A stretch of DNA of 64,000 nt from assembly GCF_000295095.1 (NCBI RefSeq), contig NZ_JH806632.1:1049210-1113209 (forward strand), read 5' to 3'. This stretch comes from Actinomyces timonensis DSM 23838 (lineage in GTDB: Bacteria > Actinomycetota > Actinomycetes > Actinomycetales > Actinomycetaceae). The notes under the pieces are model-generated. The model did not search any database and was not told the DNA's origin. It was given only the letters and a program-made list of their open reading frames with translations. Of this stretch, positions 31,932 to 46,357 are shown in pieces (the first letter of the stretch is position 1; every line of letters starts with the position of its first letter). The position numbers and the translations under genes were made by a program.

Positions 31932-32702
31932 CTAGACGATCTGGCTGACCACCAAGAGCACAAGCCCGACGGCGTCGACCCCGAGCCTCTGCGGCTCACG
32001 GCCTTGGAGCAGGTTCACCGGATGCTGTGCATCCACCTGGGGACCCCGCCCGAGGAGTTCGTGTGGCAGTACCGCGATAAGAACAAGGAATTTCACCGGA
32101 TCGGGACGCTCACGCCGCGACAGTTCGCACAGCGCTACGTCACCGGGGTGGAGGAGTTCGTGGTCCTGGCCCACGACCCGCGCCCGGAGATCACGGTCAA
32201 CACGCGCTACGGCATGGGCCGCAGCGACGTCATGGTGGGCGAACCGGTCCAGGATCACGTCACCGCCGAGCTCGAGGTGCTCAAGGCCGCCGCGATCGCC
32301 GCGATCCAGGACGGCGAGCCGGTGTGGTTCGCCTGCGACGTCGCCAAGCAGCGGGACAAGAAGGCCGGGATCTGGGACGCCGCCCTGCACGACTACGAGG
32401 GCCTGTACGGGGTGGACCTGTCGATGACGAAGGCCGAGCGGCTGGTGGCGCGCGAGTCGGCGCTCACGCACGCCATGTGCCTGACCGGCGTCGACCTGGT
32501 CGACGGCGCCCCGCGGCGCTGGCGGGTGGAGAACTCCTGGGGCGACAAGTTCGGGGACAAGGGCTTCCACACGATGAGCGACTCCTGGTTCGACGAGTAC
32601 GTCTTCGAGGTCGTCGTGCGCGCGAGCCGCCTGCCCGAGAAGGTCCGCGCCGCCCTGGAGACCGAGCCCGTCGTGCTGCCCAGCTGGGACCCGATGGCCT
32701 GA
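31932..32702 (+). pseudogene. pepC: Aminopeptidase C (bleomycin hydrolase family), 5'-truncated
   Basis: Cytosolic cysteine aminopeptidase, peptidase family C1B, of which only the C-terminal half remains. The readable frame spans about 255 codons against roughly 440 for intact PepC. It retains LRLTALEQVHRMLCIHLGTP, the catalytic His in ALTHAMCLTGVD and the catalytic Asn in RVENSWGDKFGDKGFHTMSD. The N-terminal half with the nucleophilic Cys is absent; the sequence upstream is the unrelated holin-family gene. A TTG at 32004 could initiate a 232-residue fragment, but without the Cys it cannot be a peptidase. The truncation lies at the border of the defence island, suggesting deletion when foreign DNA arrived. 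Confidence 0.85.
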
Positions 32703-32719
32703 GACGGCGGGGCGAGGGC

Positions 32720-33238
32720 TCACGGGCGCTCGATGGACTCTTCGCCCTCGTCGAGGGCCCGGACGATGAGCCGCACGGCCTCCTCGGGTGGGACGTGCTC
32801 CCAGATCCGCAGCACCGTCCACCCCTCCGCCTCGGCCATCGCGGTGGTCTCGCGATCGCGTTCGATGTTCTTCGCGAGCTTCGGTCTCCAGTAGTCGGCG
32901 TGCGAGACCGGCAGCGTGGCATGCTCGGGACACCCGTGCCAGAAGCAGCCGTCGATGAAGACGGCGAGGCGCTGGCGGGTGAAGACGATATCCGCACGCC
33001 GACGCTTGTTGCTCCACGGCGCCATATCAACGCGGTAGCGCAGCCCTTGGGCATGCAGCAGGCGGCGAACCGCCAGTTCGGGCCCGGTGTCGCGGCGCGT
33101 GTTGGATCGCATGGATCTCGCCACTGCCGGAGATGAGGCCCATGACGCATCATCCGTCCCGTCGCGCGCCGGCCCTTGCCCCTCGGAGCCCGAGTCCCCC
33201 TGCGGCTCCGCTTCAGTCGGACTCGACGACGGGGTCAT
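32720..33238 (-). CDS. vsr: Very short patch repair (Vsr) endonuclease
   Basis: Nicks DNA beside T:G mismatches arising from deamination of 5-methylcytosine. The 172-residue protein has VARSMRSNTRRDTGPELAVR, then RRADIVFTRQRLAVFIDGCF and WHGCPEHATLPVSHADYW, which contain the family's metal-binding Asp and His residues. The rest of the domain ends WTVLRIWEHVPPEEAV. The ATG at 33238 is the most plausible start; it overlaps the helicase gene by 26 bases. It is the last gene of the six-gene defence operon. Its natural partner, the cytosine methyltransferase, lies at the opposite end of the island. Confidence 0.92.
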   Translation of the reverse strand: MTPSSSPTEAEPQGDSGSEGQGPARDGTDDASWASSPAVARSMRSNTRRDTGPELAVRRLLHAQGLRYRVDMAPWSNKRRRADIVFTRQRLAVFIDGCFWHGCPEHATLPVSHADYWRPKLAKNIERDRETTAMAEAEGWTVLRIWEHVPPEEAVRLIVRALDEGEESIERP

Positions 33239-36221
33239 CGCTGCGGTCCCTGCGTCTGACACTGAAGGCGATTCTGCCCCTGGGGGCGGCCCGATACGGC
33301 AGTGCCAGGGAGAAGACCGTGGCGGTGTCCTCAGGCGAGAGCTCATCCGGCATGCGGCTCGGAGTTCTCTCCGCCCCGCCTCGCGGGTCGGCGGCGAAGG
33401 TGAGGAGCATAGCGCCTCTGGTGCTCGTGTGATACGCCGGGGCCGCGCCGCCACGCGGAGGCTCGTCACCCTGGGGGTCGGGCAGTCCGGCGATGGTCTC
33501 GATGGCATCGCGCTGTCGGAACGAACTGCCGGAGAAGCCCCCGCGGTCGGCGCGGCGGGTACGGCGGAGCATCGGGATGCGGATCCCGTCGGCCGTTTTG
33601 TACGAGGTGCTTTCGAGCTCGGGAAGGAGGACGGCCCAGTCCTTGAGCTTCCCCTCGTGCATGGCCCGGCGGATCATCTCCAGCGTCGGAGTGAAGTCGT
33701 AGTTCTCCATCCACTCGAAGCCCTCAAGCACCGACAGCATCTCCTCGGCGGAGATGAGTGCAACCCGTCCCGTGAATGTGCGAGTCGCAGATCCCTTGGG
33801 GTCTCTGTACTCGAAGTCCTCCGGGTCGCCGAACCGTCCCTGCTCGAGCCAGGGCCGTACGAGCGCGAAGTGCCGCTCATTCGTACTGCCGTCCCCGCGG
33901 TCCGGTTGACGGGGAAAGTCCTGGAGTTTTCCACCGATTCCACTGAAATCGAGCTTCGCGTTGTACATCTTGTTCCGGCCGGTGGGAAGCAGCCACGGCA
34001 GCTGTTGGAACACCAGTGGCGGGACGTCGATCGGGCGGATGGCGGGCCGGCCGTCCTCGTCGATCCTGGCGAAGGTCGCCAGCTGGTCGCGGAACTGCTC
34101 CTCGTCCCGCATGGTGGCGCCGAAGGCCTCGTAGAGGTCGTAGTCGACCCCTCGTGGTCCTTTGACCCGTCGCCCCATGTAGAGCCGGACCAGATCCGAG
34201 TACCCGGGTCTGTAACCGAACCAGCGGCCCATCTGCATGAGCGTGTCCGCCTGGGAGGTCCGCCGCTTGAAGTAACTGACGGTCAGTCCCTCCAGGGTGA
34301 ATCCTCGGCTGAGCTTGGTGCCGCCGATGAGAACCCGCCAGACCCGCTCCCGTTGGAAGTCGACCTGGTTGTACTGCTGATCCTTGTCGCCGTTGACGAT
34401 GACCACGGGATCGGACCCACCGGTCATGACGAGATCGAGCACCTCACCGATGAAGGGCTCCACCTCATCGAAGGAGGCCGCCATCGGCAGTCCCTCCTCC
34501 CACTGTCTGGCGGCCGACACCGCGGCGAAGTCCTCATCGAACAGACCGCGCAGCCGGGCCAGGGACGTCGGGGAGCCGTATCCGGCGCGCCGCCACAGCC
34601 GTCTGATCCGGTCCCCCAGCGTCGCGTGCTCCGCCTGCTTGACGGACTCGTGCACCAGCATGGTGTGGTGGCGGAAGGCTCCCGCGAGGTCGGGCTTGAC
34701 ACTGGCCCGCCACAGCTTGATGGCTCCGCTGAGCACGAAGGCGTCGAGTGCTGTGCCGAGCTCCTCATCGACGAGGTCCGGTTCTGTGGCGTTGTCGCCC
34801 CTGAGATCTCGGACGAAGGCGCGCTCATTCGAGATCGCCGGATCCTCCTTCTCCTCGGGTGTCAACTGTTCGAAGTCGTGGTAGGCGCGTCCGCCCCGGT
34901 ACTCCTTCGGGGCGCTCAGGCTGACGATGAAGTCGCGCGGGAACACGTCCTCGGCGTCGTCCGGAGAGATGAACACGTTGGCGAAGGGCGTGGCGGTGTA
35001 GCCGACGTACTGCGCCCGTCTCAGTCGACGCATGAGATCGGCGATAAGCTTGTTGATCGCCGTCCGTTCGTTCTGCCCGGCGCGCTTCGGGTTGACCGTG
35101 TTGACGGAGGCCTGATCCGCCTCGTCGTCGATGATCAGCGTTGGGATCTCGGCCGTGCGCGCCTTGATCCGGCGAAGGTCCTTCACGAGTTTGCTCAGGA
35201 CGGTCCTGTTCTTCTTCACGACGGCGATGCGGACGTCGGTCCGGTGGATGTTGTCCGGATGCCACATGGGCCGGGAGGGGTCGTTGAGCTCGTGCCCCGC
35301 TCGCGGGTCGAGCGCGTCGAGCCCGGCCCTGAGCATCTTGTAATCGTCCTTGGCGCCCGTCAGACGGCGTATGGACGGAACTCCGGCGTTGGTGAACCCG
35401 GCCCCGTAGGAGACGAACTTCCCGGCGCGCCAGTCCGCGTCGTCCGTACTGACATAGTCGACCTCGGCCAGGAGGTCCTCATCCCTCTCATCGACTCCAC
35501 CGAGGATGTTCTCCCTGCCGATGAGCTCCATGTCGAGTCGGCGCTGCGTCTGGGAGCGAAGGATCTCGACCGTCCCGGTGAGGACGATGATGAGGCGGTA
35601 GCCAGCGTCGATGGCCTTGGCGATGACGCCGGTGAAGTTGGCGGTCTTGCCGCTCTGCACGTGTCCGACGACCAGTCCCTTCGACTGGTACGGGTCACGG
35701 CCCGACGGGTCGGCGAGCCGGCTGACGATGTCGGTCGTGGCGGCGTCGATCTCCGCCACGGACTCCGGCGGGAGTCTGCTCTCCAGCAGTGACCGGTAGC
35801 CGTCCCAGTAGAAGTGGTGCGCTCGGCGGCGCTCTTCGTCGTACCAGGGCGTCCAGTCCGGCGCGGCGATGACGGTGGTCCTGTCGGTGAAGACGGGGAA
35901 GGCCTCGTCGATGCGGCGGGCGGCGACGCCGGAGAGCCCGAGCAACCGCAGGATGAGTGCCCGGCGTTCGGGCGTGTGCGCGGCAGTCTCGACGCACCAG
36001 GCGCCGTCCTTCTGCGCGTCCCATTGGCCGAGGCGGATGTGGAATCGCCGCCTGCCGGGCGCATTGCGGTCCGCCCCCAGGATGAGGTCGGGGATCTCGT
36101 CGCGGGCGATGGTCGCACCGGACGGCGCGAGGAAGACCGATACCACCGGGTGCAGGTCCATCGGGTCGCTCATCCCCGTCATGGCCTGCTCCAGCGCCTT
36201 GTCGTACTGATCGATGCTCAT
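33213..36221 (-). CDS. Z1 domain superfamily 2 helicase-like ATPase
   Basis: A 1002-residue DNA-dependent ATPase found with prokaryotic modification systems. Walker A is GHVQSGKTANF near residue 188. A DEAD-like box IIDDEADQAS lies near 362, YTATPFANVFIS near 405 is motif III, and QMGRWFGYRPGYSDLVRLY near 665 is the arginine-finger motif with the Z1 signature. The N-terminal 170 residues contain no named domain. The ATG overlaps the upstream nuclease-like gene by four bases (ATGA). Together with the GHKL ATPase and DUF4420-type protein it matches known MutL-linked restriction loci; actual substrate is unknown. Confidence 0.93.
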   Translation of the reverse strand: MSIDQYDKALEQAMTGMSDPMDLHPVVSVFLAPSGATIARDEIPDLILGADRNAPGRRRFHIRLGQWDAQKDGAWCVETAAHTPERRALILRLLGLSGVAARRIDEAFPVFTDRTTVIAAPDWTPWYDEERRRAHHFYWDGYRSLLESRLPPESVAEIDAATTDIVSRLADPSGRDPYQSKGLVVGHVQSGKTANFTGVIAKAIDAGYRLIIVLTGTVEILRSQTQRRLDMELIGRENILGGVDERDEDLLAEVDYVSTDDADWRAGKFVSYGAGFTNAGVPSIRRLTGAKDDYKMLRAGLDALDPRAGHELNDPSRPMWHPDNIHRTDVRIAVVKKNRTVLSKLVKDLRRIKARTAEIPTLIIDDEADQASVNTVNPKRAGQNERTAINKLIADLMRRLRRAQYVGYTATPFANVFISPDDAEDVFPRDFIVSLSAPKEYRGGRAYHDFEQLTPEEKEDPAISNERAFVRDLRGDNATEPDLVDEELGTALDAFVLSGAIKLWRASVKPDLAGAFRHHTMLVHESVKQAEHATLGDRIRRLWRRAGYGSPTSLARLRGLFDEDFAAVSAARQWEEGLPMAASFDEVEPFIGEVLDLVMTGGSDPVVIVNGDKDQQYNQVDFQRERVWRVLIGGTKLSRGFTLEGLTVSYFKRRTSQADTLMQMGRWFGYRPGYSDLVRLYMGRRVKGPRGVDYDLYEAFGATMRDEEQFRDQLATFARIDEDGRPAIRPIDVPPLVFQQLPWLLPTGRNKMYNAKLDFSGIGGKLQDFPRQPDRGDGSTNERHFALVRPWLEQGRFGDPEDFEYRDPKGSATRTFTGRVALISAEEMLSVLEGFEWMENYDFTPTLEMIRRAMHEGKLKDWAVLLPELESTSYKTADGIRIPMLRRTRRADRGGFSGSSFRQRDAIETIAGLPDPQGDEPPRGGAAPAYHTSTRGAMLLTFAADPRGGAERTPSRMPDELSPEDTATVFSLALPYRAAPRGRIAFSVRRRDRSDDPVVESD

Positions 36222-37216
36222 GGCTCCGGCGTCTCCTGAACGCGTGCGGTGAACTCCCGAGGCGGCTGCGTCTCAGGAGCGAGGTCGGTGATGTCGATGC
36301 GGTAGTCGATGCCGGTCATCATCTCGGGGTGGGCGAGGATTCGGGCGAGGCCCGCCGGCGTGAGGGCGGGGAAGACGTCGTCGACGATGTAGAACCGGGG
36401 TTCGCTGCGAAGCAGGAGTCGTGTCGTGTAGAGCCGTTCCGCATCCGTGCCGGCCATGCCCAGTGCGGCCAGCTTCTCATCGAAGTCGGTGCGATGGCGA
36501 CGCAAGCGGCTGCGCAGACGCGCGATCATGGCGGGCAGGGTGAGGGCGCCCTCGGCTGCACCGGCCAGCGTGACCTGCACGGACATCAGTCGCAGGGTTC
36601 TGCCGGACGTGGGGGTGAGCTGGCCGAGACCGTGGATGATGTGCGTGCGGCGTTCGCCTCGGGTCGTCTTGACCTCGACGTCGTAGTCCGCGAGGACGAA
36701 GTCGTGCTCCTCCCCGTGGGGCCCCAGCCACGCGGCCAGGGCCCGCGTCGCGCCCAGGCCGTCGATGAGACGGTCCAATGCGACCAGTTCCCCGAACAGC
36801 CCGGTCTCCTGCTCCTCGCTCAAGCGCGGCACGCGTGACAGCAGTCCCCGGTAGGCGTCCAGTGCGGAGTGCAGCGCGCGCTCCATGTCGTCGCCCCGTT
36901 GCAGTTGGTCGACGATGGACTGCAAAAGGGAGTAGGCCTCGTACTCGATGTCTCGGGCGTCGATGGTGACGCGGAACCAGACGGTCTCGTCACCGGGCTC
37001 CTCGAACAGGTCGGTGCGGATGATCCGGTAGGCCGAGACGTCGATGTCGGCTCCCGTGGCGGGCGTGCGCAGTGTCAGCTCGCCGCGTGGCGGGTCGATG
37101 CCGAGGACGCACACCGGCGCGGTCGAGAGCCGCTGCTCGGAGGGGATCCCCGCATCGATGTAGGCGGCCAGCGTCTCGGGGCTCAGAGCGCTGGCGTCCT
37201 CAACACGCCCGTCCAT
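36218..37216 (-). CDS. PD-(D/E)XK motif protein (DUF4420 type)
   Basis: A 332-residue predicted restriction-endonuclease-fold protein. GLFGELVALDRLIDG near residue 140 contributes the early Glu, HDFVLADYDVEVKTTRGERR near 172 gives the Asp and the E-x-K pair, and HIIHGLGQLTP follows, matching the PD-(D/E)XK order. No DNA-binding domain is obvious. It starts three bases after the GHKL ATPase stop and overlaps the Z1 helicase start. It is the likely DNA-cleaving subunit of the system; Vsr could be a second one. Confidence 0.9.
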   Translation of the reverse strand: MDGRVEDASALSPETLAAYIDAGIPSEQRLSTAPVCVLGIDPPRGELTLRTPATGADIDVSAYRIIRTDLFEEPGDETVWFRVTIDARDIEYEAYSLLQSIVDQLQRGDDMERALHSALDAYRGLLSRVPRLSEEQETGLFGELVALDRLIDGLGATRALAAWLGPHGEEHDFVLADYDVEVKTTRGERRTHIIHGLGQLTPTSGRTLRLMSVQVTLAGAAEGALTLPAMIARLRSRLRRHRTDFDEKLAALGMAGTDAERLYTTRLLLRSEPRFYIVDDVFPALTPAGLARILAHPEMMTGIDYRIDITDLAPETQPPREFTARVQETPEP

Positions 37217-37219
37217 GGT

Positions 37220-38725
37220 CTACTCCTCCTCCGTGCGACGCCGGAGCTCGTCCGACAGCGCCGCATCGATGATCCTCTCGAAGGCCTCGATCTCCCTCTT
37301 CTCCCGCGCACCGAGGAAGGAGCCCTCGAAGAAGCGCGAGTAGATCAGGTACACGAGGGTCTTGAGCAGCGGTGCGTCCTGCGGATCGGTGCTCGCCGAG
37401 AACAACCGCCGGTGGCGCTCGTTGAGCTTGAGGACTCGCTGCTCGATATCGACGTCGATGAGTCTGCCCTCCGGCATCCGGCTCCAACGGATCCTGATGG
37501 GATCGGCGCCGGCGAACTCCACGGAGTCGCCGATGACGTCGTAGACCTCCCGGCTGAGACCTCCCACGGGCTCGACCAGCTCCACCGGTCGCCTCTGCCG
37601 CCTGCGACCCGCCATGGCCGCATCCTGGGCGGCGTCGAGCAGGTCGTTGAAGGTACCGATCTCCTCGCCCACGGCGCCGTGAATCGCCCGGCGCATCTCC
37701 GGTTCGAGGACGACGCCGCTCTTCTCCGGGTTGATGCGCACCACGTCGAGCAGGGAGTCGTCCACGTCGATCGCGATGCGCAGGTTCTCGTAGTCCCTTC
37801 CGCCCTCGGTGACGTAGCTCCAGCCGCCGAGTTGCAGGAGGCGGTCCCTGCGGTAGATGTACAGGCCCTGCCCGCCCTTCGCCGATGACAACCGCTGCGA
37901 CGCCAGGACTCCGGGGGCGGTGAGGGCGGTGCCGGACAGGATGGTGGCGGTCATGTTGAAGGACGTCCGACCGACCTCGCTCACGAGCAGGTGCGAGCGG
38001 GTGGCGGCGGCCTGCCGGGCCAGCGGGTCGAGCGCCCGTACCCTGCGCGCGGAGCCGGCCCGTTCCGACTCGACGTCGTACTCGTCGATGGAGATCTCGA
38101 CCCCGCCGCGCTCGATGATCCGCTGGAACACGAGTCCGAGGTAGTCCCGGACGTACTCGACGAGCCCGCTGAGCCAGGAGCGCCGCTCCTCCCGGTCAGG
38201 GCTCGTCAGCGCGTTGTGGAATCCGAGCCAGTGGACGACCGTCCCACTCACGTGCGGGCCGGCGCCGGTGCGTGCGAGTGGGCCGTCGAGGACCCGTCCG
38301 ACCTGCGCGGCGTCGAGCGTCTGCACACGGGTCGGCTCGTCCCTGGTGATCCGGCGTCCGACGGGAAGGCCGCCGATCGCACGGGTGTAGACGTCGAGGG
38401 TGTCGGCCTGGCTGAGGGAGGCGGCCTTCAGTCCGAGCCCGTAGTGGCCCAGGTCCGTCTCGCCGTAGTCACGACGGCGGGAGAGGGCCATGGCTGCGTC
38501 AATGCCGGCCTCGTCCATGCCGTGGCCGTCGTCGATGACGAGCATGCCGGTGACGTAGTCGTCATCGGTGAGGATGCGGATGCGTACCTGTGAGGCGCCT
38601 GCGTCGATGGAGTTGTCGACGAGGTCGGCGAGCGCCGTGGGGAGCTCGTGATGGGCTCCCAGGGCGTCCGCGATGGACGGGTCGGGCGGAACGGTCCGGG
38701 AGGAGACCGCGGTGATGTCCTCCAT
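37220..38725 (-). CDS. MutL/MORC-type GHKL ATPase
   Basis: A 501-residue ATP-dependent clamp-like protein. The N-box is ALADLVDNSIDAGASQV near residue 30. The G1 box IDDGHGMDEAG and G2 box GHYGLGLKAASLSQ follow in the order of the GHKL fold. A second transducer-like domain covers about 200-350. No endonuclease motif typical of MutL C-termini is visible. The ATG at 38725 has GAGGGG upstream; a GTG at 38731 overlapping the previous stop is possible. In characterised relatives of restriction loci such ATPases pair with Z1 helicases, as here. Confidence 0.9.
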   Translation of the reverse strand: MEDITAVSSRTVPPDPSIADALGAHHELPTALADLVDNSIDAGASQVRIRILTDDDYVTGMLVIDDGHGMDEAGIDAAMALSRRRDYGETDLGHYGLGLKAASLSQADTLDVYTRAIGGLPVGRRITRDEPTRVQTLDAAQVGRVLDGPLARTGAGPHVSGTVVHWLGFHNALTSPDREERRSWLSGLVEYVRDYLGLVFQRIIERGGVEISIDEYDVESERAGSARRVRALDPLARQAAATRSHLLVSEVGRTSFNMTATILSGTALTAPGVLASQRLSSAKGGQGLYIYRRDRLLQLGGWSYVTEGGRDYENLRIAIDVDDSLLDVVRINPEKSGVVLEPEMRRAIHGAVGEEIGTFNDLLDAAQDAAMAGRRRQRRPVELVEPVGGLSREVYDVIGDSVEFAGADPIRIRWSRMPEGRLIDVDIEQRVLKLNERHRRLFSASTDPQDAPLLKTLVYLIYSRFFEGSFLGAREKREIEAFERIIDAALSDELRRRTEEE

Positions 38726-38727
38726 GG

Positions 38728-41700
38728 TCACCCCTCGGTGAATCGGCCCGGCTTGAGACCGAGTGTGCGGGCGTTCTCCGCGACCGTGCGCACGGTGTCG
38801 GCATCGAATCCGTTGTAACGGGTCGCGTCGATGGAGACCTCGATGTTGAGGCTGTCCGCGCCGCCGGCTTTCAGGTGGGCGATGACCTCATCGGCCAGCA
38901 GCGCGAGCTGGGCGGCGATGTCCTTCCCGGGGTCCAGCTCGGCCACTCCCTCGAATCTCGAGTTGGCGACGGGCTGCGGCTCGGGTGCCGGAGGGACGGC
39001 GCGCCCGTCGCGGGTGGAGTCGGATCGGGTCGCGGTGGCGTCGGGTGCGGCGCCCGTGTCATCGGCAGGTCCGGGCTCGCGCGACTCCGCAGACGCGGCA
39101 GTCCTCCGCTCCTCCTCCTCACGGCGGCGCTGCGCACGGGCGAGCGCGGGGGAGACGAGGAGGGTCGTGTCGGTGATCCTCGGCGCCTCGTCCTCCAGCG
39201 GGAGGCGCAGGTCGCGGAAGTCGCCCCGCTCGGTGTCGTAGTCGGCGGCGAGGGCGAAGCCGACGCTCTCCCAGCCGATGTCATCCATGACGGAGGCGAC
39301 GGCCTTCTCCAGCACCCTCCGGTCCCGGAGGCGCGGCATGTAGGGGTAACGGGTGAAGTAGGACCACAGCTCGCCGACGGTGATCCTGCCCCCGTTCCAT
39401 CGGGCACGAAGGTTCATGCCCCCGAGCTCAAGGGCCACGGCCGTCGGGGTGATGTCGGTCAGGACGATGTCCTGCTTGCCGAGCCTGAGGCCGGCGCGCA
39501 CGGCGATCCGCTGCTCGTCCCCCTCGATCTTGACCGGCTCGATCTTGAAGGGGCGGCCGCCGTTGTCCTGGACGGGGTGGAGCGCCCAGATCCACGCACC
39601 CGCCACGGAGCGCTCGGCGACGCTCTGGGTGTCCCGCCTCTTCTGGCGTGCCTGCTCGGCCTGGCTGGCCGTGAGGTCGTGGTCGCGGATCGACTCCTCC
39701 TTCGCCATCTCCGACCACGCCATGTGGATGCGCAGCGCCTGCTCGGCCTCGGCCCACCGTCCCTCGTCGGGGGCGACGGTGATGAGGGTGTTGACATGGT
39801 TGCGGGGCGCGGAGCCGCGATGGTGCAGGAGCTCCTCGGTGAACTCCCTGCCGGGCCCGGTCACCTGCGAACTCCGCCCGTTCCTGGCGGCGACCGTGCG
39901 GTCCGGGCCGAGGATGACCAGTGTCGTCTCCTGCTTGTCGGGGACGTCCCCGGTGGATGCCGGGGCGACGATGACATGGGCGAACTCGCGGGCGCTCGCC
40001 GCCATTCCCTTGAGCATGTCGACCGCCTCCCGGGCGACGTCGGCGGTGTCGAGGGAGGCGGCCCGGTCGACGACCATCCGGTTGATCGACGGCTGCCGGT
40101 CGTACCAGCTCCGGGTCCCCTGGTTGTAGACGTAGGTGGCTCGGTCGGTGAGCATCTGCAGGGAGGAGCCGAAGTTGCCCAGGGTGTCCCCGGGCATGGC
40201 CACGCCGAGGAAGAGGCGCTGACGGTCGATGCCCTTGTGGGCGGTGTCGAGGGTGGCGGCGGAGCCGAGGAACAGGGTGCGGGCGATGCGCCGGGTCAGT
40301 GCCCGTCGTCCGAACAGCTCTCGTTCCCGGTCGATGCGCAGGGGTGTGGCGTTCTCGCCGTCGATGTCGGTCTCGATGATGGTGCGCCAGGCGTCGTCGA
40401 GGTAGCCGGCGATCTCATCGCGGACGGCGTCGTCGTCGAAGGGGATGGAGCCCGGCATGATGAGGGGGGCGTCGTCGTCGGCCTGGACCAGGGAGTGGAC
40501 CACGGCGCTCATGAGGCGCAGGACGCCGCGGGTGCGCTGGAACCGTTCCAGGGAGGACCAGTCGCCGTAGAGCCGGTCGAACAGCTCGGGGTGGATGGGG
40601 TAGGCCTCGCGCAGCCGCCGCTCGTAGTCCGGCTGGAAGGTCTCGGAGGGCAGCTCGCCGCGCTGCCCCCGGTAGTAGTCGACGAATCGTTTGATGGTGG
40701 CGTCGCGCTTGCGGAGGGCCTCGGCGTCGAGGTCGGTGAACAGGCGCCGGCGGACGATCTCGAAGCTCTCCCCGGAGGTGGCGGGGCTCCAGTTGTGGGC
40801 CACGCGCCCGACGACGTGCTGGAGCCGCTGGAGGGCCTCGCGGCCGCCGTCGCCTCCGATCTCGAGCTCGGAGGCGCGGGTGACGGTGCCGTCCTGGCGG
40901 ATGTCGGAGGCGGGGATGGAGACGAGGAGGAGGGCCCCGGGGGTGCCCTGGACGGCGGCGGTGAGCTCCTGGGCGAAGGTGAACTGGGTGTCGAAGCTGC
41001 CGCCGGTCAGGCCGTCGCGCCGGTACAGGCCGCGGGCGTAGGCGACCCACTCGTCGATGAGGATGAGGGCGGGGGTGTGGCGGCTGATGAGGGTGCGCAG
41101 GGCGGCACCGGGGTTGGTGCCGGTGCGGTCGGCCTGCGCGATGAGCTCGTGGGCCTCGGCGCCGCCGAGCTGCCAGGCGAGCTCGCCCCACAGGGTGTGA
41201 ACGACCGTTCCGTCCGGTTTGGTGGTGGGCTGCCCGGGGGAGATCTCGTTGCCGACGATGGCGACGCGTCTGACGTCTTCGGGGATCGAAGTGTCGGCGA
41301 GCAGCTCCTGGACGTCCTGGGTGAGGTCCTTGAGCGGGGTCGGGCCGGCCAGGTGCCAGGCGGCGAGCATGGAGTGGGTCTTGCCGCCGCCGAAGGTGGT
41401 CTGGAGATTGACGACCGCCTGGGCGTTGGGGTCCCCGGACAGCCGCCGGGCGGTCATGGTCAGGAGGGTCTTGAGCCCCTCGGTGAGGTAGGTGCGCTTG
41501 AAGAAGCCGGCCGGGTCGCCGTACTCCTCACTGCTCTCCCCGTGGGCGACCTGGTGCAGGTCGGCGGCGTACTCGGCCTGGCCGTAGCTGCCGGAGACGA
41601 TGTCGGGGTGGGGGCGGACGACGTCCTTCCAGGGTGCGAGGCCGTTCTCCCCGAGGCCGGGCATGGCGACGGCGCTCGCCCGGGTGTCGCGCCTGGTGGC

Positions 41701-42141
41701 GGCGTCGAAGGTGGAGTGCAGCGCGTCCCGTTTCATGGCGCGGACCTGGTCGGCCTCGGCGGGGGCGTTGATGGCCCGCAGGAGGCGCTCGGCGGTGTCG
41801 AGGGCGCGGTAGGTGTCATCCGCACTGAAGGGGCTGCTGTGCGCCCATTTGTTACGGACCTCGCGCAGCTCTCCGGCGAGGTTCTGCTCGCCGCGGGAGA
41901 GGATCCCGCTGAAGAGGAATCCGAGGTTCCCGATGCGCTCGGTGATGATGCGCAGCTGGCTCTGGGGGTCGGAGGGTTCGTAGGTCCGGTCGGGTCTGCC
42001 GTCCTTCCAGGCGAGGAGGTCGGTCCAGGTGCTGCCGGCGGGCACCTTCGGGGCGACGGCGACGGCGATCCAGGGCTCCAGGGCTCCGGAGAGGATCTCG
42101 ATGGCCCGCCCGATGCGGTCCCGGTTGGAGGTGGCGGACAT
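38728..42141 (-). CDS. DUF499 ATPase with N-terminal HEPN-like domain
   Basis: A 1137-residue protein. Residues 1-120 resemble the HEPN domain of Swt1-type proteins and carry R96-N-K-W-A-H101, a full R-x4-H ribonuclease motif. The central DUF499 ATPase has Walker A TTFGGGKTHSML near 250 and Walker B ALILIDEWVAYARG near 360. A C-terminal charged, Pro-rich linker leads to a small final domain (DSLNIEVSIDATRYNGFDAD). Proteins of the DUF499 family accompany DUF1156 methyltransferases in anti-phage loci. The ATG at 42141 is one base after the methyltransferase stop. A role as an ATP-driven effector or switch is inference. Confidence 0.9.
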   Translation of the reverse strand: MSATSNRDRIGRAIEILSGALEPWIAVAVAPKVPAGSTWTDLLAWKDGRPDRTYEPSDPQSQLRIITERIGNLGFLFSGILSRGEQNLAGELREVRNKWAHSSPFSADDTYRALDTAERLLRAINAPAEADQVRAMKRDALHSTFDAATRRDTRASAVAMPGLGENGLAPWKDVVRPHPDIVSGSYGQAEYAADLHQVAHGESSEEYGDPAGFFKRTYLTEGLKTLLTMTARRLSGDPNAQAVVNLQTTFGGGKTHSMLAAWHLAGPTPLKDLTQDVQELLADTSIPEDVRRVAIVGNEISPGQPTTKPDGTVVHTLWGELAWQLGGAEAHELIAQADRTGTNPGAALRTLISRHTPALILIDEWVAYARGLYRRDGLTGGSFDTQFTFAQELTAAVQGTPGALLLVSIPASDIRQDGTVTRASELEIGGDGGREALQRLQHVVGRVAHNWSPATSGESFEIVRRRLFTDLDAEALRKRDATIKRFVDYYRGQRGELPSETFQPDYERRLREAYPIHPELFDRLYGDWSSLERFQRTRGVLRLMSAVVHSLVQADDDAPLIMPGSIPFDDDAVRDEIAGYLDDAWRTIIETDIDGENATPLRIDRERELFGRRALTRRIARTLFLGSAATLDTAHKGIDRQRLFLGVAMPGDTLGNFGSSLQMLTDRATYVYNQGTRSWYDRQPSINRMVVDRAASLDTADVAREAVDMLKGMAASAREFAHVIVAPASTGDVPDKQETTLVILGPDRTVAARNGRSSQVTGPGREFTEELLHHRGSAPRNHVNTLITVAPDEGRWAEAEQALRIHMAWSEMAKEESIRDHDLTASQAEQARQKRRDTQSVAERSVAGAWIWALHPVQDNGGRPFKIEPVKIEGDEQRIAVRAGLRLGKQDIVLTDITPTAVALELGGMNLRARWNGGRITVGELWSYFTRYPYMPRLRDRRVLEKAVASVMDDIGWESVGFALAADYDTERGDFRDLRLPLEDEAPRITDTTLLVSPALARAQRRREEEERRTAASAESREPGPADDTGAAPDATATRSDSTRDGRAVPPAPEPQPVANSRFEGVAELDPGKDIAAQLALLADEVIAHLKAGGADSLNIEVSIDATRYNGFDADTVRTVAENARTLGLKPGRFTEG

Positions 42142-42142
42142 G

Positions 42143-44968
42143 TCAGTGGTTCTCCAGGGTGTCGAGGTCGAGTGCGGTCTGGATGTCCGAGCCGGCGCTC
42201 TCCGCGGTCCGGGCCGCGGCGGCGATCTCCGGCCAGGAGCCGCCCAGGGCGTTGAAGAGGAGGCCGGCCTCGGTCCAGCCGTGCTTCTCGGCGAGGGAGT
42301 AGAGGCGGTAGGCGAGGGACTGGAGGATGTCGGCGCCCAGGCCGCGTTCGGCGGCGGCGGAGAGGATCCGCCCGGCCTCGTCGATGCCGCGCCGGTCGAG
42401 GGCCCGGGCGAGGTGGAGGACCACCTCCCAGTGGGAGATGCGGTCGTCGGCACGGGGGTCGTAGTCGTCGGGGAGGTCGGCGGGGGCGATGAGGCCGACG
42501 CGGCCGCCGCCGGAGGTGAGGACGCCGGAGCGCTTGAGGGCGTCGATGGAGGCGTTGCGGGCCGAGGCGAGGGTCTCGGCCTCCCCGTAGGTGCCCTCAG
42601 TGAAGCCGTGGGCGTCGAACCAGGTGAGGCACCAGCGGGTATCGGGGTCGAGGTCGCCCTCCTGCTCGCCGAGGACCTCGTCGAGCACGGCGTTGATCTG
42701 GGTGAGGGCCTCGGAGACGCTCATGTCGGTGCCGTCGGGGCTGATGACGCGGGAGTATCGGGAGAAGACGCTCATGCCGGGGCCGATGGCCGCCTGGGCG
42801 AGGTCGACGGGGGCGATGCCGCCGCTGCGCAGGGTCTCGACGGCCTCGGGGAGGGTGCGGCGCAGCTCGCGCATGAGGCTGCGGCGGTCGGTCATGGGGG
42901 CGTCCTCGGGCCGGGGCCGCAGCACGAGGACGATGGAGGAGGCCAGGGCGTTGGTCCCGGAGGCCACCATGCGGTTCCCCAGCTCGGAGCGCATGGGCCA
43001 GGTGGCGGTGATGCTCCAGCCGGAGCGGATCATTCCCTCGAGGATCGTGGACCAGCCCGTAGAGGTCCGTCCGTCGACACTGGTTTCCGACTGTTTGAAG
43101 GCGTAGTAGACCGTCATCGGGTAGTCCGGGTTCGCGCTCCGGCGGGCGTTGGCGAAGACGGCGCGAAAGCCGTCCTCGAAGAACCTTTTCGCCCCATCCT
43201 TTCCCCCGTGCCGGTACTGGTTCGCGACCAGCTCCTCGGCCTTGGGAACGAGCATGGTCGAGAACAGGGAGGGGTGAACATCCTTGAGGGAGCGGCGCAG
43301 CCACACGTAGAAGAAGTCAGACAGGTCCGAGTAGCCGATATTGTCATAATAAGGCGGATCAGTGGAAACCATGCAGTGACTCACTTCAACAACATCCGCG
43401 CCGAGTTGATCAACCTTCGCACAATATCTCGAAGGCAATTCGAGCAACACTCGAGCAATCCAGTCAACCTGCCCCAAGTAATTGCCAGTCGAACCGGACA
43501 ATGGATTCGATTCCACGAAATCCCAGGTCATAGGGATGGCTTGACGCGAAAATACATTACGGACACTCTCGCGCCCCGAATGCCACGAACAAATCGAACA
43601 GTTATAGTCAGTTAGCCTTGACACTCCGGCGGCAAGATACGTAGCCACTGCGGCCGCATAGGCCACAGCTTCAGCGCCCCCTGAGTCGAGACAATCACCC
43701 TCCCCCATTCCGGCGGAAAGAGCATCCAGCAGCACTTGCTTTCGCGCCTCTGCTACCAGATCTGAGAAAGTGGCCAATGCTGTCAACTGCCGCGAGGTGA
43801 AGGCATCACTCCAGGTCGGCATGCCATACATCGGAAGCCGATCAACATCATGATTACGTGTCGGCACCTCTTGACTGGGGACATCGGCGGGACGCGAAAC
43901 ACTCAGCGCCACATCAGTATGCGCCTCCGTCGGTTCGAGGTACTCCCTTCGTCGATCACCCTCTGCCGCAATCGCAATGAGTTGCTGTCCGAACCCCCGA
44001 GATGCTGCCTGTTGACGAATGTAGGCATTGTCAATCAAGGATCCACAGGCCAAGCACCTTCCCTTTCCTCCTGAGATCGTCCCATCTTCCTGCTTCGTCG
44101 GCGCCTGCTTGGGATCGTGGCCGATGGAGTACTCGACGTGGTCACCAACAACCGTCGGGACGATGTAGGCCTCCTTGCCCTTCTTCTTCCCCAGCCACCA
44201 CGACCGCACGAGCGGCGCCTCAATGCCGCAGGCCGGGTTGGGGCAGGTGACGGTCCGCGCCCAGATCCAGGCGATGACGGTCGCCTCCGATCCGTCGGGC
44301 AGCTGGGCCCGAGGGTAGAGGTGGCCGATGCGCCTCCAGGCCTCCTCACGCATCCACTCCCCGTAGCGGCGCACGTCCTCGGCCAGGCCGTGCGCGCCGG
44401 GCCAGCTGCGCGTGCCATCGTCGGCGCCGGGGAAGACCGGGGCACGGCCGGCGAAGAGCGGCGGGATCTCGATGAGGGCCTTGTTGATGAGAACGGCCAC
44501 AGGGTTGAGGTCGGAGGCGTGCGCCTCCAGGCCGAGCCGCTGTGCCTCCAGGGGGATGGAGCCGCCTCCGGCGAAGGGGTCGAGGACCGCGGGAGGCTCC
44601 TCCCCCGTCGAGCGGCGGATCTCCTCCCTGACCTCACGCATGAGGTGCTCATCACCGATGTTGTCCCAGTTCACCATGCGGGTGATGAGGGTGAACAGGC
44701 GGCGACGCTCCGCCTCCACCGCCCGCTCCGCAGCGGACTCCGGGGCGGCCTCGCCCGCGGCCCGGGCCGCCTCCAGGAAATCCTCGTAGCGCTCGGAGGG
44801 GTCGTCGACCAGCTGGGAGAAGAGCACGGCGCGGGCGGTCGCCAAGGGGCGTCTGGCCCACCACAGGTGCAGCGTGGAGGGGTGCCCCTTGCGGATGGAC
44901 TTCTCCCGAGCGGACTGCTGGTTGATGGCGTCGAGAGGCAGCGCCACCTCAATGAGCTTCCTGGGCAC
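42143..44968 (-). CDS. DUF1156 adenine/N4-cytosine DNA methyltransferase
   Basis: A 941-residue modification enzyme and first gene of the operon. MPRKLIEVALPLDAINQQSA and HPSTLHLWWARRPLATARA are the DUF1156 N-terminus. SAM motif I is VLDPFAGGGSIPLEAQRLGL near residue 130, and the catalytic motif is D537-P-P-Y. A Cys-rich segment (CPNPACG ... CLACGS) probably binds zinc. The start is GTG at 44968 with GGAAGGA seven bases upstream. The part encoded by about 43340-44090 is clearly lower in GC than the rest and may be an exchanged target-recognition region. Modification target is unknown. Confidence 0.93.
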   Translation of the reverse strand: MPRKLIEVALPLDAINQQSAREKSIRKGHPSTLHLWWARRPLATARAVLFSQLVDDPSERYEDFLEAARAAGEAAPESAAERAVEAERRRLFTLITRMVNWDNIGDEHLMREVREEIRRSTGEEPPAVLDPFAGGGSIPLEAQRLGLEAHASDLNPVAVLINKALIEIPPLFAGRAPVFPGADDGTRSWPGAHGLAEDVRRYGEWMREEAWRRIGHLYPRAQLPDGSEATVIAWIWARTVTCPNPACGIEAPLVRSWWLGKKKGKEAYIVPTVVGDHVEYSIGHDPKQAPTKQEDGTISGGKGRCLACGSLIDNAYIRQQAASRGFGQQLIAIAAEGDRRREYLEPTEAHTDVALSVSRPADVPSQEVPTRNHDVDRLPMYGMPTWSDAFTSRQLTALATFSDLVAEARKQVLLDALSAGMGEGDCLDSGGAEAVAYAAAVATYLAAGVSRLTDYNCSICSWHSGRESVRNVFSRQAIPMTWDFVESNPLSGSTGNYLGQVDWIARVLLELPSRYCAKVDQLGADVVEVSHCMVSTDPPYYDNIGYSDLSDFFYVWLRRSLKDVHPSLFSTMLVPKAEELVANQYRHGGKDGAKRFFEDGFRAVFANARRSANPDYPMTVYYAFKQSETSVDGRTSTGWSTILEGMIRSGWSITATWPMRSELGNRMVASGTNALASSIVLVLRPRPEDAPMTDRRSLMRELRRTLPEAVETLRSGGIAPVDLAQAAIGPGMSVFSRYSRVISPDGTDMSVSEALTQINAVLDEVLGEQEGDLDPDTRWCLTWFDAHGFTEGTYGEAETLASARNASIDALKRSGVLTSGGGRVGLIAPADLPDDYDPRADDRISHWEVVLHLARALDRRGIDEAGRILSAAAERGLGADILQSLAYRLYSLAEKHGWTEAGLLFNALGGSWPEIAAAARTAESAGSDIQTALDLDTLENH

Positions 44969-44986
44969 GGGAGTCCTTCCTGTCGA

Positions 44987-45031
44987 CGGAGAACGGGGGA
45001 ATTCTCCGCGGGTGCGAACGGGAACATCCTA
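44987..45031 (-). promoter_or_regulatory. Promoter and candidate operator of the defence operon
   Basis: A -10 element TAGGAT reads 45031-45026 on the minus strand, with a weak TGATTC 17 bases upstream. Between it and the ribosome binding site is CGGAGAA (44987-44993) and its inverse TTCTCCG (45002-45008), 8 bases apart. The position just downstream of the transcription start suits a repressor site. Confidence 0.5.
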
Positions 45032-45114
45032 CGACCGCCCGCCGACACGAATCACACCCTTGAACCGACGGTGAGCCTCGATTCGGTGTCGTACCGGCCG
45101 GCTACCCTGATTCC

Positions 45115-46209
45115 ATGACTGCCCGCCCCATCCGCGTCCTCGACCTCTTCGCCGGGGCGGGAGGTCTCACTGCGGGCTTCCATGCGGCGTCGTCCCGCTT
45201 CCGCAGCATCGCCGCCGTCGAGATGGACCCTGAGGCCGCCGCCTCCTACCGGGCGACCTTCCCCAAGACCGATGTCTACGCGGGCGCCATCCAGGACTGG
45301 CTCGCCGAGGGGACGATCCCCGCAGGCGTCGACGTCGTCGTCGGAGGCCCGCCGTGCCAGGGGTTCAGCACGCTCGGCAAGCGGGACGCGGAAGACGCCC
45401 GCAACCGGCTCTGGGAGCAGTACGCCCAAGTCATTCAGAGGGCCAGACCCAAGTACTTCGTCGTGGAGAACGTGCCCGCCTTCGGGAAGTCGCCCCAGTA
45501 CCGCGACTTCCTGGCCGCCACCGCGCCCGGGGAGTTCCTCGAGGACTACTCCTTCGACTTCCGCGTCCTCAACGCCGCCGACTACGGCGCCCCGCAGGCG
45601 CGCCGGCGCGCCGTCCTCATCGGGCACCGCAACGACATGGCCGCCCCCGGGTTCCCGGAGCCCACGCACTCCCCGGACGGGGGAGGCGACCTGCCCCCGC
45701 ACCGGACGGTGCGGCAGACGCTTCTGGGCGTGCCCGCGCAGCCCGACATGGACGAGCGCTTCGACCAGCTCCGCACCCGAGTCGGCTCACGGCGGGTGCC
45801 CGGCGCCTTCTCCCCCCGGGAGCTGCACGTCTCCCGGGGCTACAGCCCCAAATCACGCGAGCGCTTTGCCGCGATCCCCGAGGGCGGGAATCGGGCGGAT
45901 CTTCCGGACGACTTGAAGGCGCCCTGCTGGCTCCGGCACACCTCCGGTTCCATGGACGTCATGGGACGCCTGCACTGGGACCGCCCCTCCGTGACGATCC
46001 GGACCGAGTTCTTCAAGCCGGAGAAGGGCCGCTACCTCCACCCCGTGGAGAACCGCGCCATCACCCACTACGAGGCGGCGCTCCTGCAGGGATTCCCCGA
46101 CACGCACCGCTTCATCGGCTCCCGCACCTCCATCGCCCGGCAGATCGGCAACGCCGTCCCCATCCCATTGGGCGCCGCCATCGCACGGCAAGTCCTCGCG
46201 CAATTCTGA
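45115..46209 (+). CDS. dcm: DNA (cytosine-5) methyltransferase
   Basis: Methylates cytosine C5 in a specific DNA sequence. The 364-residue enzyme shows motif I DLFAGAGGLTAGF, catalytic motif IV GGPPCQGFSTLG, motif VI ENVPAFG, motif VIII QARRRAVLIG, motif IX RPSVTIRTEFF and motif X GNAVPIPLG. The target-recognition region between VIII and IX is about 100 residues, so the enzyme is compact. The ATG follows TACCCT (45103-45108) by six bases, a leaderless start. It is divergent from the six-gene operon. A Vsr gene at the far end of that operon should repair its deamination products. Confidence 0.95.
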   Translation: MTARPIRVLDLFAGAGGLTAGFHAASSRFRSIAAVEMDPEAAASYRATFPKTDVYAGAIQDWLAEGTIPAGVDVVVGGPPCQGFSTLGKRDAEDARNRLWEQYAQVIQRARPKYFVVENVPAFGKSPQYRDFLAATAPGEFLEDYSFDFRVLNAADYGAPQARRRAVLIGHRNDMAAPGFPEPTHSPDGGGDLPPHRTVRQTLLGVPAQPDMDERFDQLRTRVGSRRVPGAFSPRELHVSRGYSPKSRERFAAIPEGGNRADLPDDLKAPCWLRHTSGSMDVMGRLHWDRPSVTIRTEFFKPEKGRYLHPVENRAITHYEAALLQGFPDTHRFIGSRTSIARQIGNAVPIPLGAAIARQVLAQF

Positions 46210-46357
46210 GGACGATCCCGAGCACCGGCTCCGTCGATACATCTCAGGATTCCCAATACGTTCAACCCGGCCACCCCGCTCACCACCGGATTTCTTTCGG
46301 CATTTTCTCCAGCATTCTCAGCAGGAGACCCTAAGCAAGCCTTCAACCATTCCGGTT

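Follow-up and report, generated by a model that had tools for sequence, protein, structure and literature searches.

What kind of defense system is formed by seven adjacent genes of Actinomyces timonensis DSM 23838 that seem to combine two systems? The genes lie in a 64,000-nucleotide stretch of contig NZ_JH806632.1 (positions 1,049,210 to 1,113,209), hereafter the window. Profile matches for Vsr, DUF4420, MutL-type ATPase, HmaC, HmaB, and Dcm proteins (Table 1) confirm a first-pass annotation that had described a composite locus with two methylases of different chemistry, here N6-type HmaB and C5-cytosine Dcm. We favor, with moderate confidence, the reading that this cassette is an Hma-type set in which the cutting module of a different defense system stands in for the usual, missing DNA-cutting helicase.

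Table 1. Features of the cassette, in window coordinates.
Feature	Position	Strand	Evidence
Vsr-type very-short-patch endonuclease, 172 aa	32720..33238	-	Pfam Vsr 66 bits; TIGR00632 119 bits (cut-off 97.85)
Gene between the Vsr and DUF4420 genes	33213..36221	-	
DUF4420 PD-(D/E)XK nuclease, 332 aa	36218..37216	-	Pfam 122 bits; NCBIfam MzaD 77 bits (cut-off 420)
MutL/paraMORC-type GHKL ATPase, 503 aa	37220..38731	-	HATPase_c_3 82 bits; NCBIfam MzaB 87 bits (cut-off 850)
HmaC, HEPN_Swt1 + DUF499 AAA+ ATPase, 1137 aa	38728..42141	-	PADLOC HmaC 834 bits; Pfam HEPN_Swt1 89 bits, DUF499 96 bits
HmaB, DUF1156 N6-type DNA methyltransferase, 941 aa	42143..44968	-	PADLOC HmaB 1109 bits; Pfam DUF1156 90 bits
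Dcm C5-cytosine methyltransferase, 364 aa, divergent	45115..46209	+	Pfam DNA_methylase 200 bits; PADLOC DruM-type 321 bits
Inserted cassette, approximate limits	32714..46270	.	Homology breaks in five of nine cassette-free relatives

Hma consists of three genes, encoding the helicase HmaA, the methylase HmaB, and the ATPase HmaC (PMC8565338, available portion). The available text of PMC12839542 names it a Type-1 BREX-related system and describes the effector as a Snf2 helicase, fused to a PD-(D/E)XK nuclease in 79% of its taxa. The cassette resembles Hma in its HmaB (DPFAGGG and DPPY motifs present), in its HEPN-DUF499 fusion HmaC (RNKWAH, GGGKT, and LIDEW motifs present; C-terminal domain of ~85 aa), and in the gene order B then C; HmaC is often HEPN-fused in Hma. 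DUF1156 and DUF499, earlier noted as a separately known pair, are HmaB and HmaC.

The cassette differs from Hma in having no Snf2 helicase(-nuclease) HmaA. None is present in the window, and the best match to the HmaA model in the A. timonensis genome reaches only 96 bits, compared with 1265–1436 bits in three control genomes and 1375 bits for an HmaA protein of plasmid L010. We therefore reject an HmaA hidden elsewhere in the genome. HmaA is missing from 12 of 12 genomes with the composite layout, where the model scores at most 97 bits or finds nothing at E ≤ 1e-20.

The combination of an HmaA-less Hma set with a foreign cutting module is found in about a dozen related genomes. We identified 12 complete five-gene cores, in which motifs are kept and the HmaB recognition segments have recombined; HmaB contains two variable segments (residues ~300–400 and ~440–540). 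The first-pass annotation had allowed that only chance joins the two modules; we reject such a juxtaposition. A nonfunctional junction, decaying or accidental, accords with one decayed copy of the composite (G185) but is very improbable in light of the complete cores, kept motifs, and segment exchange. An explanation centered on the HEPN domain of HmaC, although unlikely, draws on the Rx4H motif kept in 12 of 12 loci and on the proposal, in the available portions of PMC12839542 and PMC3710099, that HEPN-DUF499 fusions are last-resort RNases. Five HmaC loci with neither effector module weigh slightly against the favored reading.

Genome G197 contains two HmaB genes head to head (L044:11960-18134), with like ends and different recognition segments. 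This pair is possibly an invertible specificity switch.

The composite set appears to move as a single block. A flanking SIP gene is present in 20 of 49 genus genomes (E ≤ 1e-60), and the site is occupied in four of these (A. timonensis, G170, G158, and G131). All nine other SIP-bearing genomes examined lack the cassette, with no profile match for any cassette gene or HmaA; the remaining seven (51–59% identity) were left out of the comparison. Five of the nine cassette-free genomes match the window on the left up to 32703–32713 and again on the right from 46271–46315; the gap opens shortly before the stop of Vsr and closes shortly after that of Dcm. The other four have a partial or missing C1-peptidase remnant on the left. 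Homology to G180 is confined to 32762–46209, and that genome therefore carries the same cassette at a different site. None of the seven proteins is an integrase or transposase, and we reject insertion by such elements; no direct repeats at the junctions are clear by eye (no repeat program was run). Beside the insertion point, 32022–32702 encodes only the C-terminal half of a C1-type peptidase (profile 211–438 of 438), which was not cut by the insertion because the same stretch occurs in the five cassette-free relatives.

Both halves of the cassette are already known; the joint system with HmaA replaced did not turn up in our searches, in keeping with the earlier view of an unnamed set. Distant relatives of MzaB (the MutL-type ATPase), MzaC, and MzaD recall MZA (MzaABCDE), but all score far under NCBIfam cut-offs (MzaC, 296 against 1500 bits; Table 1). 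No match to the sigma factor MzaA or the AIPR protein MzaE is listed for the seven proteins (for Dcm, among the best 25 of 63 PADLOC matches). MZA membership is therefore rejected. Overall, the first-pass interpretation holds in part. No PglZ- or BrxL-type match, as in BREX proper, is listed among the seven proteins; the relation to BrxC runs through DUF499 (PMC12839542, available text). One known operon type shares the GHKL ATPase, SF2 helicase (DThhQXuRhFG; DTLMQMGRWFG in the cassette), E-D-ExK nuclease (D..EVK in DUF4420), cytosine methylase, and Vsr, but its available description includes no HmaB/HmaC-type gene. That of a further known system names no Hma genes and leaves three genes unnamed.

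Gene content, the replacement itself, conservation, intact motifs, insertion of the cassette, and exchange of HmaB segments are observed; the roles that follow are inferred. HmaB would provide N6mA self-marking and target choice. The analogy with BrxC (PMC12839542) or with AAA+ looping (PMC3710099) suggests HmaC as a possible assembler, and the MutL-type ATPase may loop DNA that the helicase unwinds, as the available part of PMC2292703 proposes for such operons. The DUF4420 nuclease would then cut DNA, with HEPN as a putative back-up. Vsr would repair deaminated 5-methylcytosine, a role questioned by G197, a genome with no Dcm match.

Hma/BREX-related systems are widespread (PMC12839542, available text), yet little is understood about them. 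A naturally occurring exchange of the complete effector that leaves sensor and methylase in place splits recognition from killing and offers a direct route to assigning jobs to Hma parts. The variable half-segments make HmaB simply testable as a bipartite specificity subunit, and the composite links MutL/MORC-type ATPases with a BREX-like sensor.

The MutL-type ATPase gene starts at GTG 38731 or ATG 38725. Its product and aligned relatives have Asp in the N-box (ALADLVDNS), where Glu is usual in GHKL ATPases. Adjoining the composite locus of Agromyces allii (L199:3137-8932) are a divergent gene for a MutL/MzaB-type ATPase fused to a MzaA-like sigma-70 factor (164 bits) and then Dcm. Nearby, L199:9980-12001 encodes a DUF4011 protein with a fused HEPN_Swt1 domain ~40% identical to that of HmaC, probably a further defense gene in the same island.
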